21,487 nucleotides of DNA. It comes from a virus. Location of the stretch: positions 1 to 21,487 of the IMG/VR virus record IMGVR_UViG_3300045286_000168; one strand, written 5' to 3'. Position 1 is the stretch's first letter, and each line of letters begins with the position of its first letter. Made by a program: the position numbers and the translations under genes. Under the pieces are notes generated by a model, which made no database searches, had not been told where the DNA came from, and worked only from the letters and a program-made list of their open reading frames with translations. Of the stretch, positions 3,706 to 21,487 are shown piece by piece.

Positions 3706-5073
3706 ATGAGTGCTTGCGCCGCCAGCGCACCGCGCGCCACTCTTGCCGTCGTGAAGGATGCCGTCACCGGCTGCCGACCCGATCAGCTCTTCGGCCTCTG
3801 GGCGATCGAGGAGACCCGCTTCGCGCGGATGGTGGATCTGGTGCGGGGCGTGGACCTCGAGAAGCTGCGGGCCGAGTCGCAGGCGGCAGCGGACAAGGCT
3901 GCCGGCCGTCCGCTGTATCAGCTGCGGCAGGACGGGATCGCACTCATCGAGGTTTCCGGGCCCATGACGAAGTACCCGACGAGCTTGCAGGCCCTGCTCG
4001 GCGGCACCTCGACGTTGCGCACCCGGGATGCGCTGCGCGCGGCCGCGCGGGACCCCGAGGTCCTCGGCGTCATGCTCGTGATCGACAGCCCTGGAGGCAC
4101 GGTCAGCGGCAGCTTCGACCTCGGCGAGGACGTGGCGAAGGTCGCCGAGCGGAAGCCGGTGCACGCCTACGCCTGGGATCTCATGGCTTCCGCCGCCCTT
4201 CTGGCCGGCGTCGGCGCGCGCAAGGTGTGGGCCAACACCAACGCCGAGGTCGGTTCGATCGGCGTCTACAGCGTGGTCGAGGACACCTCCGGCGTCTACG
4301 ACAAGGCCGGCGTCAAGGTCCACGTGATCTCGAGCGCTCCTCCGATCAAGGGCGCCGGCGTCGACGGGACACAGGTCACCCCGGAGCAGCTCGCCGAGTG
4401 GAAGCGGCGCGTGGACGACCTGGCGCAGCTCTTCGTCGCAGACGTCGCCAAGCGGCGCCGGATGCCGAAGGAGAAGGCGCAGGCCCTCGCCACGGGCCAG
4501 GTTTGGGTGGCGGACAAGGCCCGAGAACTCGGGCTGATCGACGGCGTGCTGTCGCTCGACGACGCGATCGCGCGCTTGAGGAGTGAAGCAATGGCAGAAC
4601 AGGAAGCCGCCGCCGCCCTGGCGATGGCGGCCGAGGCCGAGCAGAAGATGGAGGCCGAGAAGGCCGGGCGCGAGAAGGCCGAGCGCGAGCTCGCCGACAT
4701 GAAGACGCGCCTGAAGGGGCTCGAGGACGAGAAGCGCCGCGGGCGGTTCGCGGCGGACGCGGCCGCCGTGGGCGCGCCGGCGGACTTCGGCCCCGTGCTC
4801 GACGCGATCGAGGGCGCGGCCGGCAGCGCCGTCTACGAGAAGCTGCTGACGCAGTTCCGCGCCTACCAGGCCCAGGTGGCGACCGGGGCGCTCTTCATCG
4901 AGAAGGGCACGGCAGGCGCCTCCGCGGGCGAGTCCGACTTCGAGGCCGCTGCCCGCGCGAAGGTGGCGTCCGGCGCGGCCAAGACGCTCACGGAGGCCTA
5001 TCGGATGGTCTCCAAGGAGAACCCCAAGGCCTACGAAGAGCACGCCGAGCGCGTGCGGAAGGGAGCTGCGTAA
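3706..5073 (+). CDS. Prohead maturation protease (S49/SppA fold) with C-terminal scaffold
   Basis: The 455-residue protein fuses a ClpP-fold serine protease to a scaffolding region, as in the lambda C protein. Residues about 75-290 carry the S49 signature: VIDSPGGTVSG (about 125), the nucleophile region DLMASAALLAG with Ser162, and a downstream Lys215 in PPIKGAG that matches the position of the general-base lysine of S49 enzymes. From about residue 296 comes an Ala/Glu/Lys-rich coiled coil, then a region that probably acts as scaffold. It would assemble with and then cleave capsid precursors. The start is uncertain, because the ATG at 3706 lacks a clear ribosome binding site. An internal start at 4591 would give the scaffold alone. 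Confidence 0.88.
   Translation: MSACAASAPRATLAVVKDAVTGCRPDQLFGLWAIEETRFARMVDLVRGVDLEKLRAESQAAADKAAGRPLYQLRQDGIALIEVSGPMTKYPTSLQALLGGTSTLRTRDALRAAARDPEVLGVMLVIDSPGGTVSGSFDLGEDVAKVAERKPVHAYAWDLMASAALLAGVGARKVWANTNAEVGSIGVYSVVEDTSGVYDKAGVKVHVISSAPPIKGAGVDGTQVTPEQLAEWKRRVDDLAQLFVADVAKRRRMPKEKAQALATGQVWVADKARELGLIDGVLSLDDAIARLRSEAMAEQEAAAALAMAAEAEQKMEAEKAGREKAERELADMKTRLKGLEDEKRRGRFAADAAAVGAPADFGPVLDAIEGAAGSAVYEKLLTQFRAYQAQVATGALFIEKGTAGASAGESDFEAAARAKVASGAAKTLTEAYRMVSKENPKAYEEHAERVRKGAA
4591..5073 (+). CDS. Probable nested scaffold protein (internal start in protease gene)
   Basis: An in-frame ATG at 4591 (residue 296 of the protease) is preceded by GAGGAG at 4578-4583 with a 7-base spacer, a better initiation site than that of the full-length gene. 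Initiation there would yield a 160-residue protein starting MAEQEAAAALAMAAEAEQ: a highly charged coiled coil (to about residue 50) followed by the same C-terminal domain. This is the arrangement of lambda C and Nu3, where the scaffold is made separately and in excess. The ribosome binding site and frame are seen directly; use of the start is inference. Confidence 0.6.
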   Translation: MAEQEAAAALAMAAEAEQKMEAEKAGREKAERELADMKTRLKGLEDEKRRGRFAADAAAVGAPADFGPVLDAIEGAAGSAVYEKLLTQFRAYQAQVATGALFIEKGTAGASAGESDFEAAARAKVASGAAKTLTEAYRMVSKENPKAYEEHAERVRKGAA

Positions 5074-11614: not shown

Positions 11615-14600
11615 ATGGCCGTCGTCCGCGTCGATCTCGAGGTCAGCAACAAGGGCGAGGTCGTCCTCAAGAACATCGCCGGCCAGCTCGACACGGTCGG
11701 CGAGAGGGCCAAGGTCGCCCAGTCCGTCCTCGCCAAGCTGTTCGACCAGTCCGGGCTCGGGTCGACGGGCAGTGGGACGGTCGACAAGTGGCTGGCAGGC
11801 CTTGCAGCGATGGGGCCCGTCGGAGCCGCCGCGGCCGCTGCGATGGGCGTCTTCGCCGCCGCCGCGACGGCGTCGGCCGTGGCGGTAGGGGCCGCGATCA
11901 AGGAGGTCACGGAGTACGGGGGCCACCTGGGCGACCTCTCGGCGAAGACCGGCATCGGGACCACCGCCCTGCAGGAGCTCGAGCAGGCCGGGCGGCTGAC
12001 CGGCGTATCCCTGGAGGAGCTCGCTGGCGGCGTGACGAAGCTGCAGAAGAACCTCGTGGATACACCGGCGAAGTTCGAGCAGCTTGGCCTTTCAGTCGAC
12101 CGGCTGCGGGCGATGGCCCCCGAAGAGCAGCTCGCAGCCGTGGCGGCGAGGCTTCAGCAGATCAGCGACCCTGCACTCCGGGCGGCGGCGGCGATGGACC
12201 TGCTGGGCAAGTCCGGGGCCTCGCTGCTACCCGCGCTGAGGAGCGACCTTGGCGAAGCCGCGGATCAGGCGCAGCACCTGGGGATGGTCCTGTCGGAGGA
12301 CACCGTCAAGAGCCTGGACGAGCTCGGCGACGCTGCGGACACGCTCGGCGCCACGTGGACCGGGCTCTGGCGCCAGATCGGCGCCGCGATCGCGCGCCAG
12401 CCAGAGGTGATCTCGGCGCTCACGGGCATGACCGAAATCGTCGGTGCCATGGCCCGGGGGGCGAAGGACGCCGTGCCGGCCGTCCTGGATTTCGGCCGCG
12501 CGATCGACAGGATCGCTTTGGGGGGCAACATCCAGCAGATCCTCGCCCTGATGCGCGGCGCCGGCCTCCTGCTTTCGTCGGGCGGCCCGACTCCAAAGGG
12601 CAACATCTTTGGGCCGATGGCGGCCCCTGGCGGCATCGACTTTGCGGCGATCGCCGCCCGCGCCGGTGTCGCAACCGACGACTACAAGGCCCAGGACCGG
12701 AAGGACAAGGCCGCGGCTGAGGCAGAGGCCTCTCGTCTCGCCGCCCTCGCGGCCGACCTCGAGGCCGCAGCCGTGAAGCGGAACGCCGAGGCCTTGAAGC
12801 TGGCCGAGAAGGCCGAAGACGACTACTACAAGATCCAGGTCGATGTCGCGAAAGGCTCGGGGGACGTCATTCGCGCCCTGCAACTCGAAGCCGATGCCCA
12901 GGTCGCCGCGGCCGTCGCCACCTACACGAAGATCGCGGCCACCGGCAAAGCCACCGAGGCCGATCGCGAGATGATGCAGGAGACCATCGACCTGATCAAC
13001 ATCAACGAGGCGGGCGCCGAAGCGGCCGAACGGATGGCCAACGAACTCGAGAGGTACTACGCCACCCTCGACGCCATCGCCTCGGACGCCGACGAGGCAG
13101 CGGGAAACCTGGCTGAGGGCCTCGCGAGGTACTACGAGGAGGCGGCGCAAGCCGAGGAGGACCAGCTCCAGAGGCTGCGCGACACCGGGGATCTCATCAG
13201 CTCCCTGAGCGACCTGTACGCCGCGCTCGGCGGCTCTGCGAGTTCCGCATTCGGCAAGATCTTGTCCGGGCTGGGCGCCGGCTTCCGGTTGGCAGAGGCC
13301 TACAAGACCAGCACCACGGGGCTCGGGAAGGTGGGGGTGCTCGCTGGCGGCATCGCCTCGATCTACCAATCCGGCAAGGAGAATGGGGCGCTCGGCGGCG
13401 CGCTCGGCGGGGCGGCAACGGGGGCCGCGCTCGGATCTGTCGTCCCAGGCGTGGGCACGGTCGTTGGTGGCATCGTGGGGGGTGTCGTCGGACTGTTCGG
13501 GGGGCTCTTCGGTGGCGGCGCCAAGAAGGCCGAGGAAGAGCGGAAGCGACGAGAGGAGGCGGAGCAGAAAGCCGTGCAACAGCTCGGCGACCTTGCAAGT
13601 CGTTGGGAGCAGTTCCGCACCAAGACCGTGGAGGGCGGCGTCTCGGCCCTCGGCGCCGCCTTCGAGTACCTCGGGAAGCAGACCGACGTATCGGCGGATC
13701 GCCTGGCTCGCCTGGGGCTCATCGGATCGGCGGCCCTCGGCTCGCTGATCAAGAGCGGCCTCTCGTTCGTCGACGCGGTCAAGAAGATGGCTCCCACCCT
13801 CGAAGCGGCGCAGAAGGCTGGCGTAGAGATCGACAGCGGCAAGGGCTTCGGCCTTGGCGACTTCCAAGCCAAGGTGCTCGCCAACCAGGACCTCGTCAAC
13901 GCGGCCGAGAGCTGGGGCCAGGTGATCGACTCGCTGCGCGTCACCGGTTCGCTAACCCAGGAGACCTTTGGGGCGGCCCAGCAGGAGGCCCAGGCCTACT
14001 TCAACGACCTCATCGCAGGCGGCTTCTCGTCCAACCAGGCTCTCGCGGTGATCGCCAAGACGCTCTACTCGATCCAGTCGGCCGCGAACGACACCGGGCT
14101 CGCCGTGGACGCAAGCACCCAGTCCCTGATCGACCAGGCGAACACGGCTGGACTCCTCGATGGGATCGCCGACCCGTTCAAAGAGATGGCCGACATCCTC
14201 AAGACGCAGACCCAGATCCTCGCCGAGCTGGCGCGGGTGATGGGCGGCGTCCTGCCCGCGAGCGTGCAGGCCTACGTGGACAGCCTGAACTCCATCCCGC
14301 GCAGCGTCTCGACGACCGTGGACCTGAGCTACGGTGGCGACGCCGGCACGGGCCAGGACAACCGGCCGACCCCCACCCAGATCGACAACCCCGACTACAC
14401 CTCCGCGGGCGGCTTCGGCCCCCGGCGCCTGGCGCGGGACACCGTGTTCCAGGCGCACGAGGGGGAGCACGTCCTGATCGTCCCGAAGGGCCGGGCGGTG
14501 GGCTTCGCGAGCGCCGCCGGTGGCTTCGGCACGCCGGCTGCGATCAACGTGACGGTGGCGCCTCAGCTGGTCGTGAACGACAACAGCATGGTGCGGACGC

Positions 14601-18105: not shown

Positions 18106-18347
18106 TGGCGCAGCAACGGAGCGTGACGGACCAGCAGGTAGCGGCACGGCTGGCCTTGGGCGATCAGATCGAGGCGATCGCGCTGCAGGCCCAGATCGCT
18201 GAGGGCATCAGCGGGCGGATCGACAACGCCATCGCCTGGCAGGAGGTCTACACCAGCACGATCGCAGGCATTCAGGCGTCGATTCAGGCGCTGCAGGCCA
18301 CGGTGGCGAACCACGAGTCCCGGATCGCCGCCCTGGAGAGCCCCTGA
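18105..18347 (+). CDS. Small coiled-coil tail-operon protein
   Basis: The ATG at 18105 overlaps the previous stop (TGATG), and I prefer it to an upstream in-frame start that would run inside the lectin domain. The 80-residue protein is Gln/Ala/Ile-rich and helical throughout. Its last 35 residues (AGIQASIQALQATVANHESR and on) show a heptad pattern typical of a parallel coiled coil. It could be a trimeric stalk or chaperone for the neighbouring fibre protein. No family is recognised. It also overlaps the next gene by one base. Confidence 0.65.
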   Translation: MAQQRSVTDQQVAARLALGDQIEAIALQAQIAEGISGRIDNAIAWQEVYTSTIAGIQASIQALQATVANHESRIAALESP

Positions 18348-19612
18348 TGCGCTACGTCGCAGGCGAGCTCCTCAACTTCCTCGAGCTGGCGCGGGCCGTC
18401 ACGCCCTCGCCGGCCCTCGACACCAACTTCCCAGCCGGGCGCCTCTACGATGGCTACGCCGACGCGGTCGCGGCCTTCGGCTCCAACGGCGCCGACCCGA
18501 AAGTCACGGTCGACCTCGCGATGGTGGGAGCCGACGGCATCGACAACGGGAACCTCGACACCTGGGCTGCGGGCGCGCCCGCGGGCTGGACGGTCGCGAC
18601 GTCGGGCAGCGGCGCCGTGACGGAGACGACCACGGCGGGCGAGATGCGGAGCGGCAGCGCCGCCAAGCTGAAGAAGGGCTCGGGCGGAGCGTCGATCACG
18701 AAGAGGTACCGCGTCCGCGCCGGCCAGCGGCTCAACCTGAGCGTGTGGCTGCGCGTCGCGGCCAGCGGCATCGCCAAGGCCCAGTTCTACAACCCCGTCA
18801 CGAAGCGGTACCTGACGAGTGGCGCGGCCTGGCAGGCGGCCCAGGCCTACTTCGCCACCGAGGCCGGCACCAGCTACGCCGAGAAGACGCTCTCCTTCCA
18901 GGTCGAGGACCTCGCGACCTGCGGCGACCCCATCACGCTCCTCGAGCTCCTGGTGCGCGACGACGGCGCGGGAGGGGCGAGCGACTACGCCTTCGTGGAC
19001 GACGCCTTCCTCTGGCCAAGCTGGAATGCCGTGGTCGTGGCCGGGCACAACATCGAGCCGGGGATGGCGCCGACCGCCCGCAGTTCCACGGACGGCTTCT
19101 CGGGCGTCGACACTGGCGAGGCCGTCCTCACGCCCGGTCAGCCGAGCTTCTATGGCTACCTCGCGTCGCCCTCGGCGCGCCGCTACGTCCGGCTCGCGAT
19201 GGCCGGGACCCAGGCATCGGCAGCGGTGTGGCTCGGCGAGCTGGTGGTCACCTACCTCGAGACCGGCGGGGAGCCCGACTGGGGCTTCGAAATCCGCCAC
19301 GATCCGGACAACGTCGTCGCGCAGGTCGGCCTTCGGACCGTGGCGACGAGGGGTGCCACGCAGCGTCGGCGGGTGCTGCGGTTGAGCACTGGGTTGCGCA
19401 GCGCCGCCGAGTACCTCGTCAAGCGCGACGAGGTACACCGCCGTTGCCACGGAGCCCTCTGGCCGCTGATCGTGGTGCCGCTCGACGCCGAGGATGTGGT
19501 CCTGCACGGGCGGCTCGACGACTCTTGGTCGGCCAAGCGGCAGTTCCTGGCCTCATGGTCCGAGGACATGATCGTCTCGGAAAACCCGCTTCCACGCGTG
19601 GTGCCGGCGTAG
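18347..19612 (+). CDS. Distal tail / host-contact protein with carbohydrate-binding-like module
   Basis: This 421-residue protein starts one base inside the coiled-coil gene's stop. Residues about 60-220 resemble a CBM4/9-like beta sandwich: NGNLDTWAAGAPAGWTV, then NLSVWLRVAASGIAKAQFYN, then KTLSFQVEDLATC. The stretch KRYLTSGAAWQAAQAYF resembles KYWRDSDQTWQASKTW in the 16048-18105 protein. The C-terminal 110 residues (WGFEIRHDPDN through HGALWPLIVVPL to VVLHGRLDDSW) match the style of siphophage distal tail adaptors. It closes the late operon; no endolysin or holin follows. Binding of host glycan is inferred from the fold pattern only. Confidence 0.6.
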   Translation: MRYVAGELLNFLELARAVTPSPALDTNFPAGRLYDGYADAVAAFGSNGADPKVTVDLAMVGADGIDNGNLDTWAAGAPAGWTVATSGSGAVTETTTAGEMRSGSAAKLKKGSGGASITKRYRVRAGQRLNLSVWLRVAASGIAKAQFYNPVTKRYLTSGAAWQAAQAYFATEAGTSYAEKTLSFQVEDLATCGDPITLLELLVRDDGAGGASDYAFVDDAFLWPSWNAVVVAGHNIEPGMAPTARSSTDGFSGVDTGEAVLTPGQPSFYGYLASPSARRYVRLAMAGTQASAAVWLGELVVTYLETGGEPDWGFEIRHDPDNVVAQVGLRTVATRGATQRRRVLRLSTGLRSAAEYLVKRDEVHRRCHGALWPLIVVPLDAEDVVLHGRLDDSWSAKRQFLASWSEDMIVSENPLPRVVPA

Positions 19613-19624
19613 CCGGGCGCCCCC

Positions 19625-19696
19625 TTAACGGATCTTCTCGAAGTCGTCGCCGCCGAGCTTGAAGACGCCGGGGTAAGCGCCGGGGTCGTCCCCGCG
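19625..19696 (-). pseudogene. Possible C-terminal gene remnant, antisense
   Basis: On the - strand, 23 codons ending in a TAA (19625-19627 on the + strand) read RGDDPGAYPGVFKLGGDD and then FEKIR, with almost all third positions G or C, as in the real genes here. The frame has no start codon and meets a TGA about 13 codons farther upstream; the coding-like signal stops at the ACTTTGCG repeat at 19697. It may be the last piece of a gene cut by recombination at the attachment region. It is too short to name, and chance is possible. Confidence 0.3.
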
Positions 19697-19704
19697 ACTT
19701 TGCG
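19697..19704 (+). repeat. ACTTTGCG repeat, left copy (candidate arm site)
   Basis: This 8-mer, extended as ACTTTGCGTTCC, lies 107 bases left of the attachment core. Two more copies lie right of the core in the same orientation. Direct repeats flanking a core are the usual form of tyrosine-integrase arm-type sites. Binding is inferred. Confidence 0.45.
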
Positions 19705-19810
19705 TTCCCTTTCCGGACCGCTGATTGCTCCAGGCTCACGAGTGCGTCGAAACGCCTGTAGATCCGCGCATGAGAATGATACGCGCCACACGCAAACCCC
19801 CCGCCGGGGC

Positions 19811-19867
19811 CTTAAAATCCTGTGCTGCGCGAGCAGCGTGCGGGTTCAACTCCCGCCTCCGGCACCA
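19811..19867 (+). other. attP: Attachment-site core: 3' half of a tRNA-Leu(UAA) gene
   Basis: The 57 bases run from the anticodon loop CTTAAAA (anticodon TAA) through the 3' anticodon strand TCCTG, a class II variable arm GCTGC-GCGA-GCAGC (19824-19837), the T-arm GCGGG-TTCAACT-CCCGC (19840-19856), the 3' acceptor strand CTCCGGC, discriminator A and an encoded CCA (19865-19867). The D-arm and the 5' anticodon strand, which should read CAGGA, are absent, so this cannot be a functional tRNA. Phage integrases of the tyrosine family often use such 3' halves, with crossover in the anticodon loop; recombination would restore the host gene. The int stop lies 21 bases away. Confidence 0.85.
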
Positions 19868-19888
19868 CTTGCGAGGACGCCTTCCGGC

Positions 19889-20965
19889 TCACTTTGCGTC
19901 CACTTTGCGGATTGCTTCCCTGAGGAGCGCCTCGTCCACGATCGCGTAGCGCCGGTACATGCTCTCGGTCTTGTGGCCGACCATCGCCATCGCCGCCGAC
20001 CGCGGCACACCCGCGCGCTCGAGGGCGCGCACCGCCGTCCGTCGCAGGTCGTGCAGGAGCGCCCCGGGTCGTCCGGCCGCCCGCCGAGCCCGCTGCCACG
20101 CGCGGCGCAGCTCGCCGCGGCTGATCGTGACTCCGGCGTGGTGAAAGACCCATGGGCAGATCCGGCCCTCCCGCTCGATGGCGGTCGTCGCTTCGCGCTG
20201 GGCCTCTAGGAGCGTTCGCAGCTCGCCGGTGAGAGGAAACATCCTGCCCTCGCCCGTCTTGCCCTCTCCGGGCTCCAGGCGCAGCCAGCCGGCCACCAGG
20301 TCGACGTGGCGCCACTGGCGGGTGAGCAGCTCCGACGCGATCCGCCAGCCGGTGATGCGGGCCGCTCGGACCACGGGCCGGAGATGTTCGGCCAGGTGCA
20401 CCAGGATCGCCTCGAGGTGTGCCTCCTCAAGGAACCCCTGCCGCGCATTCGATTCGCGCAGCAGCGGGATGTCGGGCCGGCGTGAGATCAGGCGCGCGCG
20501 GGCTGCGAGTCGGAGGCCGCGCTTCAGCGCCGCGAGTTCCCTGTTGACGGTGGCTACGGCAGCTCCCTCGGCACGCCGGGCAGCGATGTAGTCGGTCGCC
20601 ACCGCCTCTGAAAGCTCTGCGGCGGGGCTACCGCCACCGAGGTGAGCCTCGAGGTGGGCGAATCGCTGCCGCACGCTGGTGCGCCGTCCCTGCGCTGCGT
20701 AGTCGGCCTCGACGAGCTGCCGGAGGGTCGCGAGCGTGGTTTCTCGCGCCGCGCGTCCGAGGGGTGCACCCGCGTCGCGCGCGACGAGCCGCTCGCGGAG
20801 TGCGTTCTCGGCAGCCCGGCGGCTGCGGGCGCCGGTCGATTCCCTGATCTCCTCGCCGGCCGCCGTGTAGCGCATCCACCAGATGGCCGACGTCCGAAGC
20901 TTGCCGTCCGGCCCCCGGTAGGTCGGCTGGTAGACGCCGCCGGTCCCGGCTGTTCGGCGCCTCAT
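19889..20965 (-). CDS. int: Tyrosine integrase
   Basis: The 358-residue protein is a site-specific recombinase of the lambda-integrase family that should insert and, with an excisionase, remove the phage at tRNA-Leu. Residues 1-60 fit an arm-binding domain (GGVYQPTYRGPDGKLRTS), about 78-175 the SAM-like core-binding domain, and 190-358 the catalytic domain. All six catalytic positions are present: Arg208 (TGWR), Lys236 (GEGKTGE), His305 and Arg308 (LLHDLRRT), His331 (VGHKTES) and the nucleophile Tyr340 (MYRRY). The ATG has GGGAGG a few bases upstream. It faces the late operon, converging on the attachment core, and the lipoprotein gene lies 31 bases upstream on the same strand. Confidence 0.95.
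   Translation of the reverse strand: MRRRTAGTGGVYQPTYRGPDGKLRTSAIWWMRYTAAGEEIRESTGARSRRAAENALRERLVARDAGAPLGRAARETTLATLRQLVEADYAAQGRRTSVRQRFAHLEAHLGGGSPAAELSEAVATDYIAARRAEGAAVATVNRELAALKRGLRLAARARLISRRPDIPLLRESNARQGFLEEAHLEAILVHLAEHLRPVVRAARITGWRIASELLTRQWRHVDLVAGWLRLEPGEGKTGEGRMFPLTGELRTLLEAQREATTAIEREGRICPWVFHHAGVTISRGELRRAWQRARRAAGRPGALLHDLRRTAVRALERAGVPRSAAMAMVGHKTESMYRRYAIVDEALLREAIRKVDAK
19891..19910 (+). repeat. ACTTTGCG tandem repeat, right copies (candidate arm sites)
   Basis: Two copies, at 19891-19898 and 19902-19909, are 11 bases apart, about one helical turn, which would place them on one face of DNA. They lie 24 bases right of the core and inside the last codons of the integrase gene (…KVDAK). 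Together with the copy at 19697 they flank the core. Confidence 0.5.
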
Positions 20966-20996: not shown

Positions 20997-21487
20997 TCAC
21001 ACGATCTGGACGGTCAGCAGCGCCGTGACGGTGTTCCCGTTCGCGTCGATCGCCTCGACGCTAACCTGAAGCGTCGCCTGCCGCGTGCCCGAGTAGAGGA
21101 TCGAGAAGGGAATCGCCAGCGAGCCGCGCGCCTGGACGAAGTTCGTTCCGGCCAGCCGCGAAACGTCTGCGGCGCCGTACTGGAGCGAACCCGTGCTCGG
21201 CGGGAAGCTCATGTTGACGCGGTTGATGTTGCACGCGAGCCCGGCCGATTCGGTGACGGTCACCGTGAAGCTCGCGCCGAACGGGAAGGTGTTTCCGCTC
21301 GCCCCCGTCCCCCCCGGACCCGCCACCACGGGATTGGGACTCACGGTCGCCGCGATGGCGGACCTCGTGGCGGCCACGGGCGTCGGAATGACCGTCGGCG
21401 CGCTAGGGCTGGAGCCCCCGCCGCCGCAGGCCGCGAGCAGTAGTAGGGCTGTCAGTACGGCTGTTGAGCGGACCTGATTCGACGACG
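20997..21487 (-). CDS. Lipoprotein with Ig-like beta-sandwich domain (5' end outside window)
   Basis: The reading frame runs from the right window edge to a TGA at 20997-20999. It shows a lipoprotein signal, TAVLTALLLLAAC (lipobox LAAC, Cys codon at 21426-21428), then a low-complexity linker GGGGSSPSAPTVIPTPV and about 125 residues with Ig-like strands (FTVTVTESAGLACNINRVNM, ATLQVSVEAIDANGNTVTAL). The start codon lies beyond the window. Similar lipoproteins are typical of chromosomes of high-GC Gram-negative bacteria. Its place 31 bases upstream of int suggests cotranscription and cargo carried by the element, for instance a surface or exclusion protein, but it could also belong to a neighbouring island. 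No function is assigned. Confidence 0.7.
   Translation of the reverse strand, partial: SSNQVRSTAVLTALLLLAACGGGGSSPSAPTVIPTPVAATRSAIAATVSPNPVVAGPGGTGASGNTFPFGASFTVTVTESAGLACNINRVNMSFPPSTGSLQYGAADVSRLAGTNFVQARGSLAIPFSILYSGTRQATLQVSVEAIDANGNTVTALLTVQIV

Follow-up and report, generated by a model that had tools for sequence, protein, structure and literature searches.

Where an integrase targets a tRNA gene, attP includes a piece of that tRNA, and the gene is made whole again on integration. One recognised crossover subsite for such enzymes is the anticodon loop (Islander, 2083 islands; PMC4383910), whose 7 bp, together with the flanking stem, correspond to the way overlap and core are laid out in classical sites (PMC8371274). 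Direct repeats surround attP in phages of Oenococcus (PMC8074189), and the attP of ICEMlSym R7A contains five arm-type P sites (PMC11963761). The locus described here is a clear but ordinary example of this well-known tRNA-targeting, anticodon-subsite arrangement. We assign it to a known class because both tRNA-fragment attPs and direct-repeat arm sites have already been described.

The window, by which we mean the whole stretch of DNA analysed, is the IMG/VR virus record IMGVR_UViG_3300045286_000168, a linear, GC-rich contig of 21,487 bases. Pfam and PHROG matches revealed a gene order, all on the + strand, of terminase and portal, followed by protease, scaffold-like and major head proteins and then by tail genes; the same searches recognised no host gene in the window, and near-identical phage records for it were not found. 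A tRNA 3' half sits between the last late ORF and the integrase gene (int), flanked by short direct repeats:

18347..19612, + strand: last ORF of the late operon, 421 aa; left neighbour of attP, downstream of the terminase, portal, protease, head and tail genes
19697..19704, + strand: arm-type repeat, distal (late-gene) arm, copy 1; exact ACTTTGCG, at a position that agrees with the arm sites of 13 relatives
19708..19715, + strand: probable degenerate arm-type repeat, distal arm, copy 2; CCTTTCCG, a 6/8 match, 11 bp past copy 1
19811..19867, + strand: putative attP core, the tRNA-Leu(UAA) 3' half from anticodon loop to CCA; read directly, with the same boundary in 13 relatives
19811..19817, + strand: anticodon loop CTTAAAA, predicted 7-bp overlap (crossover) region, from identity boundaries in relatives and PMC8371274
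19891..19898, + strand: arm-type repeat, int-side arm, copy 1; exact ACTTTGCG, overlapping the int stop codon
19902..19909, + strand: arm-type repeat, int-side arm, copy 2; exact ACTTTGCG, within the int 3' end and 11 bp from the first copy
19889..20965, - strand: tyrosine integrase, 358 aa; PF00589, E 6e-16; phrog_1 integrase, E 6e-40; best Foldseek match lambda Int 1z1b

The arrangement can be compared with each of the described systems. As in Islander class A, the anticodon-subsite class (PMC4383910), a 3' tDNA fragment begins at the anticodon loop (19811-19867), and the tRNA is restored in relatives of the window; nothing basic differs. Several arm repeats of about 10 bp beside int, with the core at a tRNA gene, are shared with the Oenococcus phages (PMC8074189) and ICEMlSym R7A (PMC11963761). 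Unlike both, the window has 2+2 sites (one degenerate) of 8 bp, 11 bp apart, and whereas the tRNA match of Oenococcus IntF is a 13-bp 3' end that excludes the anticodon loop, the window core begins at the loop.

Two other open frames, both on the minus strand, border the region. One, at 19626-19700, shares bases with the left arm repeat and ends ...GDDPGAYPGVFKLGGDDFEKIR-stop in a manner resembling a protein C-terminus, with another stop about 36 codons upstream. The other (20997-21485) runs off the contig end, has a lipoprotein-like signal (LLLAACGGGGSS) and showed no match in Pfam, PHROG or NCBIfam.

An initial annotation, made from the letters alone, had proposed that a tRNA-Leu half starting at the anticodon loop lay between repeats, and this was confirmed. 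The sequence CTTAAAATCCTG...CTCCGGCACCA reads CTTAAAA-TCCTG-variable arm-GCGGG TTCAACT CCCGC-CTCCGGC-A-CCA, with the first base of the loop at 19811, the anticodon TAA at 19813-19815 and the CCA end at 19867. The suggested check for an intact tRNA-Leu(UAA) in the rest of the contig was negative, as ARAGORN called no complete tRNA anywhere in the window. The core half-site on the P side, GGGGC, is a weak match to the tRNA anticodon stem, which counts against the attP reading, as do the degeneracy of the fourth arm site and the lack of a matching host tRNA in the searches described below. It is hardly credible that the half is instead a decayed tRNA gene, or a phage-borne tRNA minus its D arm, in which GCCGGGG (19803-19809, left of the core) and the acceptor 3' strand CTCCGGC (19857-19863) form the acceptor stem. 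These two segments can pair, a weak Rfam tRNA-Sec match spans the pairing (E 0.28, below the gathering score) and the fold is moderately better than that of shuffles (z -2.1), but the D arm and the 5' anticodon stem are absent, and the relatives described below cut tRNA-Leu and tRNA-Cys at the same base, with unrelated sequence upstream. GCCGG[AG]G occurs 21 times on both strands of the window, so a copy near the core is unremarkable; the pairing is probably due to chance in GC-rich DNA.

The annotation had also reported an 8-mer present three times in the same orientation at attP, its right-hand pair overlapping the coding end of int. Both statements hold: ACTTTGCG lies on the + strand at 19697, 19891 and 19902, and the latter two copies cover the last codons and stop of the integrase gene. 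A fourth exact, unrelated copy occurs at 12639. Four copies in the whole window compare with 0.30 expected from dinucleotide shuffles, none of which reached four. The GC-rich window nevertheless contains 20 instances of 8-mers present three times within 214 bases; since these triples are of equal density, the ACTTTGCG triple alone is weak evidence, and its modest statistics made comparison with relatives necessary. The significance of the repeats stems from the comparison with related integrase loci and not from the triple itself. The fourth arm site, at 19708, is probably a degenerate one, and two relatives (L068 and L069) have a comparable partner, with one mismatch, in one arm. Separate from this set, CGCCGGGG occurs three times near attP, at 19666, 19678 and 19802, two of the copies being 12 bp apart.

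Relatives were collected by scanning with the integrase and then with a three-sequence alignment of it, yielding 19 viral and 5 bacterial loci. In 13 of the viral relatives a tRNA 3' half lies just downstream of int, derived from tRNA-Cys (n=11), tRNA-Leu(UAA) (L082) or tRNA-Leu(CAA) (L068); together with the window these make 14 attP loci. In all 14, a tRNA 3' half starting at the anticodon loop is flanked by repeats of 7-10 bp that come in pairs at a spacing of 10-12 bp, about 78-115 bp from the loop on one side and about 82-180 bp on the other. The proposal of arm-type direct repeats round a tRNA core is therefore borne out by the same anatomy at the relatives' integrase loci. When paired repeats were scored at fixed geometry, 13/13 scored attP loci passed, compared with 7/3900 dinucleotide shuffles (0.18%) and 48/2371 real windows of the same loci (2.0%); L080, outside the 13 scored loci, also shows paired repeats. 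The attP loci are not all independent, and contain about eleven distinct repeat sequences.

The repeat sequence varies by lineage while the paired geometry is constant: the arms carry GGGTAGCAC in L070 and L071, AGCCACAC in L074 and L075, AATGGGCA in L073, GGGCACAC in L082, GCGCTACCCT in L080 and GCTAACC in L081. The suggestion that ACTTTGCG might itself be conserved in related attPs thus failed, each lineage having its own repeat in the same geometry, and we rejected ACTTTGCG as a conserved motif. The cores behave differently from the arms in the 11 tRNA-Cys attPs, which share an essentially identical sequence running from the anticodon loop, CTGCAAA, to the end of the tRNA. The left limit of identity falls exactly at the first base of the loop; upstream, the sequences are unrelated except for an invariant G at -3. 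GG at -3,-2 is present in 12/14 attP loci and may represent a trace of the opposing half-site.

Several loci depart from this layout. In L068 (3742), L079 (5988), L080 (5012) and L081 (6242) the orientation of the tRNA half with respect to int is the reverse of that in the window and most relatives, yet the arm repeats stay on both sides. The contig of L082 is also that of L003, where the integrase frame (3935-4902) is broken by a frameshift near 4690 although the attP locus otherwise looks intact. L078 (5873-6300) has GGGGGGCGCAA-type repeats near int with no tRNA half recognised, and its core is possibly not a tRNA. L086 (5942-6190) has a complete tRNA-Ala beside a distant integrase, with five copies of CGTGAGTG (4+1), and may be a provirus end with a similar arm layout.

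The bacterial relatives, from an Acidobacteria genome, a deltaproteobacterial MAG, Sphingomonas, Binatia (L066) and Sphingorhabdus, have a complete tRNA 3' to int at the corresponding place in all five cases (L063-L067). The genomes of L063, L064 and L065 also contain a displaced exact second copy of the 3' part of the tRNA only, of 56, 60 and 50 bp, respectively, and attL/attR identity begins 1-3 nt before the anticodon loop. At one such locus (L102, Acidobacteria), two copies of GTGTGCCA, at 11 bp, lie upstream of the displaced half, and the repeat recurs next to the complete tRNA, on its int side. Since the assemblies are drafts and the displaced copies sit on separate contigs, no element could be joined end to end. 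These three genomes, in which int adjoins a complete tRNA and a displaced half exists, appear to hold the integrated form.

Binatia L066 was rejected as an attL/attR pair and left out of this set because its two complete tRNA-Val copies come from a wider duplication. In that region (G004:C1 1620889-1641761; L087, L091) two complete tRNA-Val(CAC) genes lie about 20.7 kb apart with duplicated upstream flanks, and an int relative lies beside one of them.

A restored tRNA and a displaced fragment were thus seen in three bacterial relatives, while the window phage's own host was not found. The exact tRNA half of the window had no match in viral_contigs, and a near-exact pattern with loop degeneracy had zero matches in genome_contigs. 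In a sample of 297 genomes from the phylum to which the Acidobacteria relative belongs, the best matching tRNA was 83% identical; phylum searches built round the genomes of L066 and L064, drawing largely on the same genomes, returned nothing at 1e-11.

The integrase has a Phage_integrase domain and the catalytic residues of a tyrosine recombinase (R208, K236, H305, R308, H331 and Y340); among 18 relatives R208 and K236 are invariant, and H305, R308 and Y340 nearly so. A PDB sequence search with the integrase gave no match. In the structure model (pLDDT 84), three strands and a helix at the N-terminus are followed by a helical core-binding domain and then by the catalytic domain; the top Foldseek match of the model was lambda Int 1z1b. 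Whole-chain alignment with lambda Int 1z1g covered residues 15-354, with 282 residues aligned (VIA Z 17.3, rmsd 9.2); the large rmsd probably reflects differing domain positions, and the fold is predicted to be lambda-Int-like. The locus resembles lambda-type heterobivalent systems in this predicted three-domain fold, in its catalytic residues and in having arm-type repeats to either side of the core. It differs from lambda in its tRNA-fragment core, in an identity of only about 20% to lambda Int over the structural alignment and in the direction of the window Int, which reads toward attP.

Arm-binding domains are expected to have three strands followed by a helix. The predicted N-domain has strands at residues 23-25, 29-35 and 38-46 and a helix at 49-64 (block pLDDT about 74-89 over residues 23-64), an order that would suit binding of the arm repeats. 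We regard it as unlikely that the repeats are bound by another protein, such as an excisionase, a regulator of int or a host bending protein. Placement of the repeats only in the int 3' end and flanks would fit such a protein, as would the correlation of arm-motif similarity with the integrase domains: Spearman 0.44 for the N-domain and 0.49 for the catalytic domain. The motif tracks the N-domain no better than the catalytic domain, and there is therefore no specific sign of coevolution. Every relative, however, has copies on both arms at similar distances, the predicted N-domain has the order of an arm-binding domain, and in comparable attPs that have been characterised, such repeats serve as arm sites for Int (PMC8074189, PMC11963761). 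By analogy with these, the repeats are most likely gripped by the integrase.

Both neighbours of the tRNA half in the window are phage genes, and the half is accordingly in the attP configuration; an integrated prophage would have host DNA on one side. The region is almost certainly the attP of a temperate phage, with 19811-19867 as a copy of the 3' end of a host tRNA-Leu(UAA). The direct grounds for this reading are the anatomy of the sequence, which is conserved in relatives, the integrated state seen in the bacterial ones and the fold predicted for the integrase. The annotation had gone further, to an attP of an excised or circular phage rather than a host junction: the phage genes on both sides and the relatives uphold attP, but the phage may or may not be excised or circular, the suggested check having revealed no terminal repeat and no circular overlap of at least 10 bp between the window ends. 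A linear contig of this kind would also fit the join between two prophages in tandem, or within a prophage dimer, at a single tRNA gene, in which a late end, a displaced half and the next int are read as attP, and tandem arrays at tDNAs are documented (PMC4383910). We consider this very improbable, as the contig contains neither a complete tRNA nor a recognised host gene, and related viral-contig loci have the same half-tRNA configuration; functionally, such a junction would still be an attP-type site.

For the attP reading, integration may be envisaged as follows. The core-binding and catalytic domains of the integrase would contact core-type half-sites round the anticodon loop, while its N-terminal domain would contact the ACTTTGCG repeats on both arms, and bent DNA would bridge arm and core sites to form an intasome. 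The 7-bp loop CTTAAAA would be the region across which strands are exchanged, as suggested by the identity boundary and the literature (PMC8371274), presumably with cleavage at the loop ends and with a requirement for host bending proteins. The host tRNA 5' half would thereby be joined to the phage 3' half beside int, giving a functional tRNA, and the host's own 3' half would be pushed to the far prophage end. We infer both binding of the repeats by Int and activity of the window attP.

The window is thus a fragment of a temperate phage genome whose attP is complete and readable, and the tRNA gene it targets (tRNA-Leu UAA) offers a handle for finding the host. The 14 attPs form a natural series for the evolution of arm-site specificity against a constant core, and offer pairs of integrase and attachment site for uncultured bacteria. 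Whether they define a clade of tyrosine integrases, mostly of uncultured phages, is to us an evenly balanced proposition. Such a clade would keep its attP geometry fixed, a loop-cut tRNA having on either side a pair of arm sites spaced 10-12 bp. The arm sequence would be replaced entirely from lineage to lineage, even where the tRNA-Cys core is one and the same, and the core could face either way relative to int. If so, attP, and perhaps arm specificity, would be directly readable from metagenomic contigs.
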